Source of the DNA: Hydractinia symbiolongicarpus
Taxonomy: Eukaryota; Cnidaria; Hydrozoa; Anthoathecata; Hydractiniidae
Length of the DNA stretch: 64,000 nt
Direction: 5' to 3'
Assembly: GCF_029227915.1 (NCBI RefSeq)
Contig: NC_079887.1
Span: 10,168,001-10,232,000 of the forward strand
Under the pieces are notes generated by a model. That model was not told the origin of the DNA. It searched no databases and saw only the letters and a list, made by a program, of their open reading frames with translations. The position numbers and the translations under genes were made by a program. Numbering within the stretch: position 1 is the stretch's first letter; every line of letters starts with the position of its first letter. Positions 52,415 through 58,919 of this stretch are shown piece after piece.

Positions 52415-52641
52415 AGAAGCCCTCAATCTCGTTCCCAGGGCTTCTTTTTCTCTTTCTGATATGTGGCTGGCGCGAAAGAAGTAGCTCTGGGACTGGCCGG
52501 TCAAAATACCCACCTATAGTGGGTATTTTTGAAAGAGCCGTTTGTCTTGCTTGTCCAGATTTTACGGAAGGGATATAGGAAGGTAACTGAGCATAAAAAC
52601 AAGCATATGGCGAGTAAAAATTTAGTTAGCTGGCTAACAAG

Positions 52642-54389
52642 ATGGAAAATATAATACAACTTTTTTCCAAACTTCGACTTGCTCTAGAGAAAGGTTTTGA
52701 CCCAAATTTTGTGTTAAAGCCCAAACAAATCATTTGCTTTGAACAACTAATTAATGGAAACGATACTCTTGCGGTTTTGCCTACTGGATATGGGAAATCC
52801 ATTTTGTACCAGTTACTTCCTTTTGTAATGCCTTTACAGAAGAAAAGAAACATAGTGATTGTTGTTAGCCCTCTCAACGCTATCATTGAGGATCAACAAA
52901 AAATTTTGAGCCAAAGAGGTGTAGAAGTTGCTACACTTACTTATGAAAGGGAAGAATGTACAGAAGATCTTTTTGCACATTTGAATACGGAAGATCCTGT
53001 CGAACCAAATTTCAAAGTTTCACATGAAATAAAAAATGGAGATATTGATTTTTTATTTGGACATCCAGAAGCATTTTTGTCACACACAGGAAGAAATTTA
53101 CTAAAATCAAAAATTTATCAGGATAATGTTGTTGCATGTGTAGTAGACGAGGCACATTGTGTGGAATTGTGGTAAGTAAAGTTTATATATAGCTAGCTAC
53201 AAAATGTACAAAAACTATCAGCTAAAAATATAAATGTATATATATACTCTTTTTGTTACTATGTATATACTATAATTTACATATTTAGGTATATATATAT
53301 ATTATGTTTTTATATCGTTTCAGGGGACTGGAATTTAGAAAAAGCTTTCAAGATTTGGTTGTCTTAAACACCATCTTTCAAGATCGCCCTATGCTTGCAT
53401 TAACCGCAACTGCGGGAGATAAAATGATTTTCAAAATTATAAAAGACTTATCTCTACAGAACTGCAAAATTGTAAAAGCCTCACCAAATCGTAGAAATGT
53501 GTTTCTAAGTGTAAAAAAACGACTTCCAAACAACTATGGTGTAAAAAGTTATGAACAAATTCTATTACCAATAGCAACAAAATTAAACGAAACAAGACAA
53601 GATTACCCTATCACAATTATATATATGGGTTTAAAATATTGTGGATATGCATATAAACTTTTTGACATGGTTATTGAAAATCCCTTCTGTGAAAACGAGA
53701 TAACTCCAAGAGCTAAATTGTATGCTCAATTTCATGCATCAACCACTTCGTGTATGAAAGAAGATATTTTGGAAGAATTGAAATCCTTAAACTCTCGAAT
53801 AAGGGTAGTATTTGCAACCACTGCTTTTGGTATGGGTGTTAATGTACCTCAGGTTACTAACATTATTCATATTTCTCCCCCATCAAAACTGGAAAGTTAT
53901 ATACAAGAAATTGGACGTGCAGGGAGAAATGGTGCACAATCAAATGCCATATTGTACTACAACAACTCTGACATCAGTAAAAATAATTTAAAAATGGATG
54001 AATCAATTAAAAAATATTGTCAAGAGACTGATTGTCTCAGAAAATCATTGCTCAAATACTTCAGTTTTAAATGCGAAACACAAGACAATTGTTGTGAAAA
54101 CTGTAATCCTACGACAACTGAAGATTTTTCTCCTGTTCATCATATACAAATGTCAGATATTGATAGAGAATCAATACGTTTAGAGCTAGAAATGATTAAT
54201 GTTGAAAAGGAAGAAGACTCTCATTTATTAACATTTGAGTTTAATTTGACACATGATGTTATTGGAAAAATTTCCAACAATTTTCATTTAATAACTTGTG
54301 AACGTGATTTATTGCATAAATTTGATGTTTGGGATGAAAGGTATTCGACAAAAATTTTTGATGTCATCAGAAAATATTTGAATCTATAA
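52642..54389 (+). CDS. RecQ-like superfamily 2 DNA helicase of the transposon, 531 aa
   Basis: Exons 52642-53171 and 53324-54389 join in phase through TG|G (Trp), with donor GTAAGT and acceptor TTTCAG. Helicase motifs in order: I VLPTGYGKSILYQ (about residue 45), Ia VSPLNAIIEDQ, II VVDEAHCVELWG (across the splice), III LALTATAG, V VFATTAFGMGV, VI YIQEIGRAGRNG. A RecQ-type zinc-binding Cys cluster follows (CQETDC...CCENC). It lacks an HRDC domain and is shorter than cellular RecQ proteins. It would unwind DNA in the nucleus, presumably during transposition or its repair. It lies about 140 bp inside the left terminal repeat and converges on the transposase gene. The open frame and preserved motifs imply recent selection. 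Confidence 0.9.
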
Positions 54390-54711
54390 GTATATAAATA
54401 ATATATATAGTTTTTATTTCTTCTTTTATTTTGTTGAAAACATTTTTTATTGGTAAGGTTGGACCATTAGAATTTTTGTGAAGCAGATTGTCTATATATA
54501 TACTCTAGATAGCTAGTTTGATTATGCAACAAATTTATAATCAAATAAGATTTTTGATGGGGTCAAACAACATTTATCTGTAAAGATATTTTAGACATCC
54601 TATATCAGCAATATTTTTTAAAGTCCAGCTTGCAATAAAAAGTTTATGTTTTTATGCATATTCACATTCTAATAATGTATATATATATAACACATTGTGT
54701 GTAAGAATATT

Positions 54712-57700: not shown

Positions 57701-57938
57701 TTTTGCTCCACATTATTTGAACATAATCTGCATGCTGTTGATAAATCTTTTTTTGCATAAACTTTTTTAGGTGTTGATGTTGTTGGAAACCTGTTGGGGA
57801 ATATATATATATATATATATATTGCATATATATAATGGTTACATGTTATATAAATATTATAAACATAAAATTTTATGAAGTATGGTCATACCTTTTTGGT
57901 GAATCTTCTGCAGTTATTCTTTTATTTTTTCCAAACAT
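54712..57938 (-). CDS. Transposase-like protein (CxxC zinc-finger N-terminus, DUF6589-like region), 922 aa
   Basis: Exons 57938-57892, 57790-56890 and 56532-54712 (or 56526 if the second CAG is used) join in phase. The N-terminus is basic (MFGKNKRITAEDSPKR). A zinc-finger-like module follows with CRLC at about residues 36-39 and CRTC about 50 residues on, spaced and decorated like a ZAD-type C2-C2 domain. The middle is Ser/Thr/Lys-rich. The C-terminal 600 residues include [56 protein letters not shown] and VNWRGGPGQNIEED, which I recognise as resembling DUF6589 proteins common in cnidarians and fungi. The conserved Asp residues (GDNWD, GDQLT) are candidates for a DDE/D core. That is inference. 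It is the likely mobilising enzyme of the element. Confidence 0.8.
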
Positions 57939-58919
57939 GTTGATGCATGGTTACATGATGAGAATATATAGCTAGTCTAGCTCTAGTTTTTTCACTACCT
58001 GAGTTTTTCTTACTAGCTATAACCTTTCCTTTTAAGAACACATAAGATCATGATTAACTTTTTGTCAGATTTAAAGCCAGCTGTAGGGTATAAACAGGTG
58101 TAAAAAAGCATAGAAAAAAAGTGTGAAAAAAATTTAGCTAAACAAAAGGTGAGAAAAACCTATTTATAAGTACCTTGCATTATATCTTTTTACAGGTATC
58201 TTTTCAACATGGTCGTAAGCATTACCAAAATAATATTTTTTTAAATTTTATTCTTTATGTAATAAAAATCTTCAAACTTCAACCATTAACAAACAGCAAC
58301 ATAACAAATCCCGCACATCATCTTCCGCCATTTTAAATTACGTTACGTTCTCGCCTTGAAGCAACTCGTCTTAAAACTCGCGTAATTGAAGAGCCAATGA
58401 AATTCAAACTTTAACCGGCCAGTCCCAGAGCTACTTCTTTCGCGCCAGCACGCATATCAGAAAGGGAAAAAGGAGCTCTGGGGACGAGATTGAGAAGCCC
58501 TGTGGCTTAAAGATTTCTTCCATTAAAGAACATACAATGGAAGTTAGAGTTTCAAATAACCTGGAAAATCCTGAAATTTAAGATATAGACCCTAAAACCA
58601 AGGGATATGGGAGGAAAATTTAATATCCCGAAATTTCAAAATTTAATCTATTTCTAAATCACTACATACCATGAAACTGATGAAATAAAAAATTCACATG
58701 TAGTATTCTAAATAAAATTAAACTATATTGGTGTAGAAAATTCCATCATACAAATCCATAACTTTTTAACAAATTTAAAAAACCAAGCAGTCAAAATATT
58801 CCATTAGCTCAGAAATTAAAATATAAGCATGCTTTTGGCAAAACAATTCTTTTAACATGATGTACATGCTAAGAAGGTTACACATAAAATGGACCAGGTA
58901 TTCCACTTTTATATATCAC

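Follow-up and report, generated by a model that had tools for sequence, protein, structure and literature searches.

A full-length, probably AcademH-type DNA transposon of the hydrozoan Hydractinia symbiolongicarpus, with a helicase gene and a probable DDE transposase of the DUF6589 family

Transposons of the AcademH group encode a helicase and make target site duplications of 9 or 10 bp, and the duplication length of Academ elements is related to the helicase or nuclease carried by each lineage, according to the available portion of PMC10045372. KolobokH elements carry a helicase as well, and AcademH is present in fungi (available portion of PMC10799480). Here we describe an element of this kind in a 64,000-nucleotide stretch of the H. 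symbiolongicarpus genome (assembly GCF_029227915.1, contig NC_079887.1, positions 10,168,001 to 10,232,000, forward strand), hereafter the window, in which all coordinates are given. The element extends from 52424 to 58492 (6,069 bp) and is very likely a full-length AcademH-type DNA transposon. Its DUF6589 protein, predicted to adopt an RNase H fold interrupted by a large helical insertion, would recognise the 82-bp ends, excise the element as a DDE transposase and insert it at a staggered cut in the target, which leaves a 9-10-bp duplication; we infer this chemistry and the role of the helicase. Like AcademH, the element combines a helicase and a transposase with 9-10-bp target duplications in an animal host, and AcademH in animals is reportedly the subject, judging by its title, of a 2020 paper by Kojima. 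We know of no explanation for why a cut-and-paste transposon should need a helicase of its own.

The initial annotation had proposed inverted termini of about 82 bp, a perfect 9-bp target duplication and two convergent open genes for a 531-amino-acid helicase and a 922-amino-acid protein, all of which was confirmed. The left terminal inverted repeat (52424..52505, plus strand) is 82 bp long and the right one (58410..58492, minus strand) 83 bp, with about 92% identity between them. The 9-bp duplication, AGAAGCCCT, lies directly outside the two ends at 52415..52423 and 58493..58501 (no strand assigned). Two end motifs, allowing up to 3 mismatches, were matched in the window solely at the element's two ends, and 0 times in shuffled sequence. 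A palindrome is present within each terminal inverted repeat (CCCAGGGCT ... AGCTCTGGG in the left one), and both ends are predicted to form hairpins, a folding prediction that carries no shuffle control. Another palindrome, AAAATACCCAC-CTATA-GTGGGTATTTT, is located at the inner edge of the left end (element positions 80-106; 52503..52529, plus strand). Between the ends, the helicase and transposase genes converge, both with open frames and GT..AG introns.

The helicase gene is on the plus strand and has one intron (53172..53323, GT..AG), which separates exon 1 (52642..53171), containing the LPTGYGKS and DEAH motifs, from exon 2 (53324..54389), containing the Helicase_C domain. Its 531-amino-acid product is identical over its full length (100% identity, 100% coverage) to a 531-amino-acid database protein of H. 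symbiolongicarpus, and DEAD and Helicase_C domains were found by Pfam. The best solved relatives by sequence are the RecQ, WRN and BLM helicases, which have both of these domains in common with it; the RecQ zinc-binding model scored 24.4 bits, just under the cut-off of 25, and no RQC or HRDC model was listed by Pfam. By analogy with RecQ, the protein is probably a RecQ-type motor that moves 3'-5'.

The transposase gene lies on the minus strand and has two introns. Exon 1 (57892..57938) holds the start codon, exon 2 (56890..57790) a zf-AD domain (PF07776), and exon 3 (54712..56532, including the stop codon) the DUF6589 domain (PF20231) with the candidate catalytic residues D363, D551 and E806. 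Pfam matched the 922-amino-acid product to DUF6589 (2.6e-36), in agreement with its earlier labelling as DUF6589-like, and to zf-AD (5.2e-11), and listed no P, hAT or Kolobok family. When the better structure model of the protein was compared using VIA-align, a second look at the top chains from Foldseek, rows 1-26 were all DDE transposases or RAG1. The call of a transposase fold rests on VIA-align; Foldseek alone gave no significant match for the transposase models, with the P element at rank 11 for the second model (E 0.53, probability 0.44). The first model had a pLDDT of 75 and was unsure around D551, where the second was sure. The nearest solved folds are the P element transposase (6pe2) and the Hermes hAT transposase (8sjd), at 8-9% identity in the structural alignment, and we know of no helicase borne by either element. 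Among homologue rows with a letter at the position, 65 of 65 keep D363, 80 of 80 D551 and 77 of 78 E806. Their predicted placement suits a DDE core, D363 being within a strand, D551 directly following one, and E806 part of a helix. E734 (93% of 81 rows) was tried as the catalytic glutamate and dropped in favour of E806, which is located in a later helix; E763, present in all of 79 rows, may be an alternative candidate. Judged by the predicted fold, DUF6589, listed as a family of unknown function, is probably a DDE transposase, and the possibility raised at the outset that the 922-amino-acid protein is unrelated to any transposase fold was not borne out. A search of the available literature for DUF6589 found no paper.

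In a search of the same assembly with the left end, 43 matches were obtained, 40 of 129 candidates being scored, and 25 places (L009-L033) were retrieved which, together with the full-length copy, form the set used for counting end pairs. Both ends are present in 20 copies, including the full-length one, and 18 of these 20 have perfect duplications of 9-10 bp. The duplications of the other two pairs are imperfect: that of L031 agrees at 8 of 9 positions, and L033 contains a degraded pair of 104 bp that agrees at 8 of 11; a second, 6-kb pairing of ends in L033 lacks a duplication, and its interior has no match. L027 and L028 share their flanks and are therefore one insertion that was copied together with its surroundings. 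No end pair was found at L017, L023, L024, L029, L030 or L032. Other copies with the same ends therefore exist, as the initial annotation had required of a transposon, with duplications of 9-10 bp rather than only 9. Several of them are older, at roughly 80-93% identity. The transposase core (55400-57600), for which 40 of 58 candidates were scored, was found complete solely in the full-length copy, and the next matches are at 65-72% identity or are short pieces at 78-100%. The description of this copy as intact and complete holds, with the qualification that it is the sole full-length copy found, all other close copies having internal deletions or truncations.

A second family was found in the same genome. 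Its members L054 and L055 are about 6.6 kb long, 99.6% alike and bounded by 79-bp ends, and a 9-bp duplication (GGGATTTAC) was read by eye for L054. They resemble the first family (family 1) in that a helicase gene and a DUF6589-type gene converge, the ends are related and the left end has the palindrome, whereas the helicase is only about 47-50% identical and the transposase identity is 64% in exon 3 and 38% in exon 2. Among the 40 of 288 candidates scored for the second family, five pairs of ends are spaced by about 6.6 kb, versus one full-length copy of family 1. The 11-bp palindrome AAAATACCCAC-nTATn-GTGGGTATTTT stands in both families at the left end's inner edge, on the helicase side, and may be a helicase promoter or operator or a protein-binding site. 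Between the families, codon positions 1, 2 and 3 differ by 0.32, 0.20 and 0.56 in transposase exon 3 and by 0.43, 0.30 and 0.55 in helicase exon 2, with no stops in either. Since third positions differ most in both genes, these codon-position differences, which are not a formal dN/dS estimate, are consistent with selection on both proteins.

The majority of the sister copies found lack the transposase but retain helicase sequence. In 12 copies (L009-L016, L018-L020 and L022) the helicase region is 99-100% identical and the transposase core is gone, through at least three independent deletions: 2789/5424 in L009 and L014, 2895/5510 shared by eight copies, and in L022 3132/5119 plus an additional gap. 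The deletion in L019 (2637/5533) may derive from that of the eight-copy group. L064 of the second family (2.99 kb, 99.85-100% identical, duplication GTGCCCAGG) has likewise kept the helicase region and lost the whole transposase. L021 matches only element positions 1-622, 1444-2391 and 5918-6069, so that its helicase is cut, and L017 matches only positions 1-1220, ending inside the helicase. L021 is 7.2 kb long and its 9-bp duplication is perfect; about 5.4 kb of this copy has no match to the full-length element and may be other sequence carried along. Of the 12 derivatives, 4 (L009, L012, L014 and L016) retain an intact helicase frame and 8 have a broken one. The gene-less copies L025, L026, L031 and L027/L028 consist of two inverted ends (97-125 bp); the duplications of L025 and L026 are perfect, and L025, L026 and L031 each fold into a long hairpin.

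The insertion had been described as probably recent. Within the two deletion groups, to which substitution counts were confined (L021 lies outside the alignment), copies are separated by 0-28 substitutions over about 3.45 kb, which supports that description; the older copies at 80-93% are present as well. Of the 28 pairs in the eight-copy group, one (L012 and L015) shows 0 substitutions and the other 27 show 7-28, and L009 differs from L014 by 5 in 3,433 bp. Despite its 0 substitutions relative to L012, L015 has lost 11 bp and gained 12 bp in helicase exon 1.

Empty sites were sought by joining the flanks of 14 copies with one copy of the duplication. For four of them (L010, L013, L014 and L018) the joined sequence had its best matches, at 96.7-98.0%, in paralogous, uninterrupted units of a tandem satellite with a 203-bp repeat. 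For L010 and L013 these units belong to the copy's own right flank; for L014 and L018 they lie in L054, and uninterrupted units also adjoin L014 and L018 themselves. Of the other 10 sites, 9 had no match across the junction and L019 had only weak ones, of about 71%. For the full-length copy no clean empty site was found, as the joined flanks fully matched only its own two halves, plus a repeat in the right flank. From 58493 onward, beginning with the target duplication, this flank resembles another repeat, copies of which (L065-L071) start elsewhere at these letters or close to them, and this accounts for the origin of the letters from the duplication onward. A 12-bp stretch around the duplication of the full-length copy matches the inverted left end. 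A preference for the element's own end as target was considered and rejected, because 15 other targets have only 4-8 bp in common with the ends.

The 203-bp satellite hosts copies of both families (L010, L013, L014, L018, L054 and L055), including 4 of the 12 helicase-bearing derivatives of family 1, a plain count that leaves the satellite's share of the genome aside. L019 sits in a related but diverged satellite (about 72%), and the insertion points of L014 and L054 are at most 1 base apart in the satellite unit. Elsewhere in the window there are tandem arrays at 10314-10888 (53-bp unit, about 11 copies), 47584-48494 (42-bp unit, about 22 copies) and 51024-51268 (TTCG, about 60 copies), and an Rfam scan of the window at gathering scores gave no match.

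In the mechanism that we propose, the transposase would pair the two ends, cut by means of its DDE active site and join the cut ends to a target staggered by 9-10 bp, after which host repair would fill in the duplication. The most likely role of the helicase would be to open the hairpin-prone ends or to process the gap left by cutting, and opening of the strand-transfer product is plausible as well. A role at the joining step fits the tie between duplication length and the helicase or nuclease carried, as given in the available portion of PMC10045372. Both proteins would act in trans on gene-less or helicase-broken copies. L010 and L013 share the same early helicase stop yet lie on different contigs and have different duplications, so a copy with a broken helicase has moved; since the end-only copies have moved too, both proteins can act in trans, and a strict need for the helicase in cis was rejected. 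For family 1, the full-length copy is the only source of transposase found.

Both features by which AcademH is described, an element-borne helicase and duplications of 9 or 10 bp, were found here, and we classify it as a new family of AcademH by this description rather than by sequence comparison with Academ elements. AcademX has a nuclease gene and 3-4-bp duplications, whereas this element has a helicase and longer duplications, and Pfam listed no nuclease family for its two proteins. Helitrons combine an HUH transposase with a helicase and are not known to have inverted ends or a target duplication, unlike this element with its long inverted ends and duplications; no HUH family was listed by Pfam for either protein. 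Kolobok and KolobokH duplicate TTAA, and the P and hAT superfamilies duplicate 8 bp, both at variance with 9-10 bp, and P and hAT resemble the element only in the predicted fold of the transposase. Zisupton (KDZ) duplicates 8 bp in the available portion of PMC12730594 and differs in the same way. That the element belongs to one of these other cut-and-paste groups (P, hAT, Zisupton/KDZ or KolobokH) and has captured a helicase is suggested by its nearest solved folds, the P element and Hermes, and by the helicase of KolobokH (available portion of PMC10799480). We consider this very unlikely in view of the duplication lengths and of the N-terminal zf-AD domain, which is unlike that of the P element and Hermes, and because Pfam gives DUF6589 and none of those families. 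The assignment to AcademH made in the initial annotation is instead supported by the helicase and the duplication length, as the group is described in the available portion of PMC10045372. The annotation had also singled out the locus as an unusual system; it does carry a helicase, but is less unusual than rated, because AcademH and KolobokH were already described as helicase carriers (available portion of PMC10799480).

Two further explanations concern the purpose of the helicase. If a helicase in cis or by dosage aided spread, helicase-bearing copies without a transposase would be favoured and a division of labour would arise. The helicase region is spared by all four deletions that arose independently in the two families (L009/L014, the eight-copy group, L022 and L064), for which the chance is 0.016 if deletions of these sizes are placed at random between the ends, and from the intact frames in L012 and L016 the ancestor of the eight-copy group probably had an intact helicase. 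However, this chance was computed after the pattern had been seen and leaves out L021 and L017, with their cut helicases, as well as L019 and the end-only copies, so that sparing of the helicase beyond chance is only suggestive. As the frame is intact in only a third of the derivatives, and both broken and gene-less copies have moved, we regard such favouring as unlikely. Taken further, AcademH in Hydractinia would consist of split populations, in which rare full elements supply the transposase and helicase-bearing derivatives without it are preferentially kept and amplified as local or extra helicase aids movement, and the DUF6589 transposase would be a structural cousin of P, hAT and RAG whose solo mechanism was replaced by a helicase partner; this picture is decidedly unlikely. 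It is also improbable that the element is an inactive relic with the helicase a passenger unneeded for movement. The single full-length copy found among the scored transposase-core candidates and the movement of derivatives lacking an intact helicase speak for such a relic, but both frames are open, L009 and L014 are separated by only 5 substitutions, and in both genes third codon positions differ more between the families than first and second ones.

The AcademH-type element described here offers a young set in which the purpose of the helicase can be asked: a full copy has both frames open, the ends are defined, some natural derivatives retain an intact helicase and others do not, and a second family exists alongside. 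At the same time, the fold prediction makes it probable that DUF6589 is a DDE transposase, for which candidate catalytic residues can be named.
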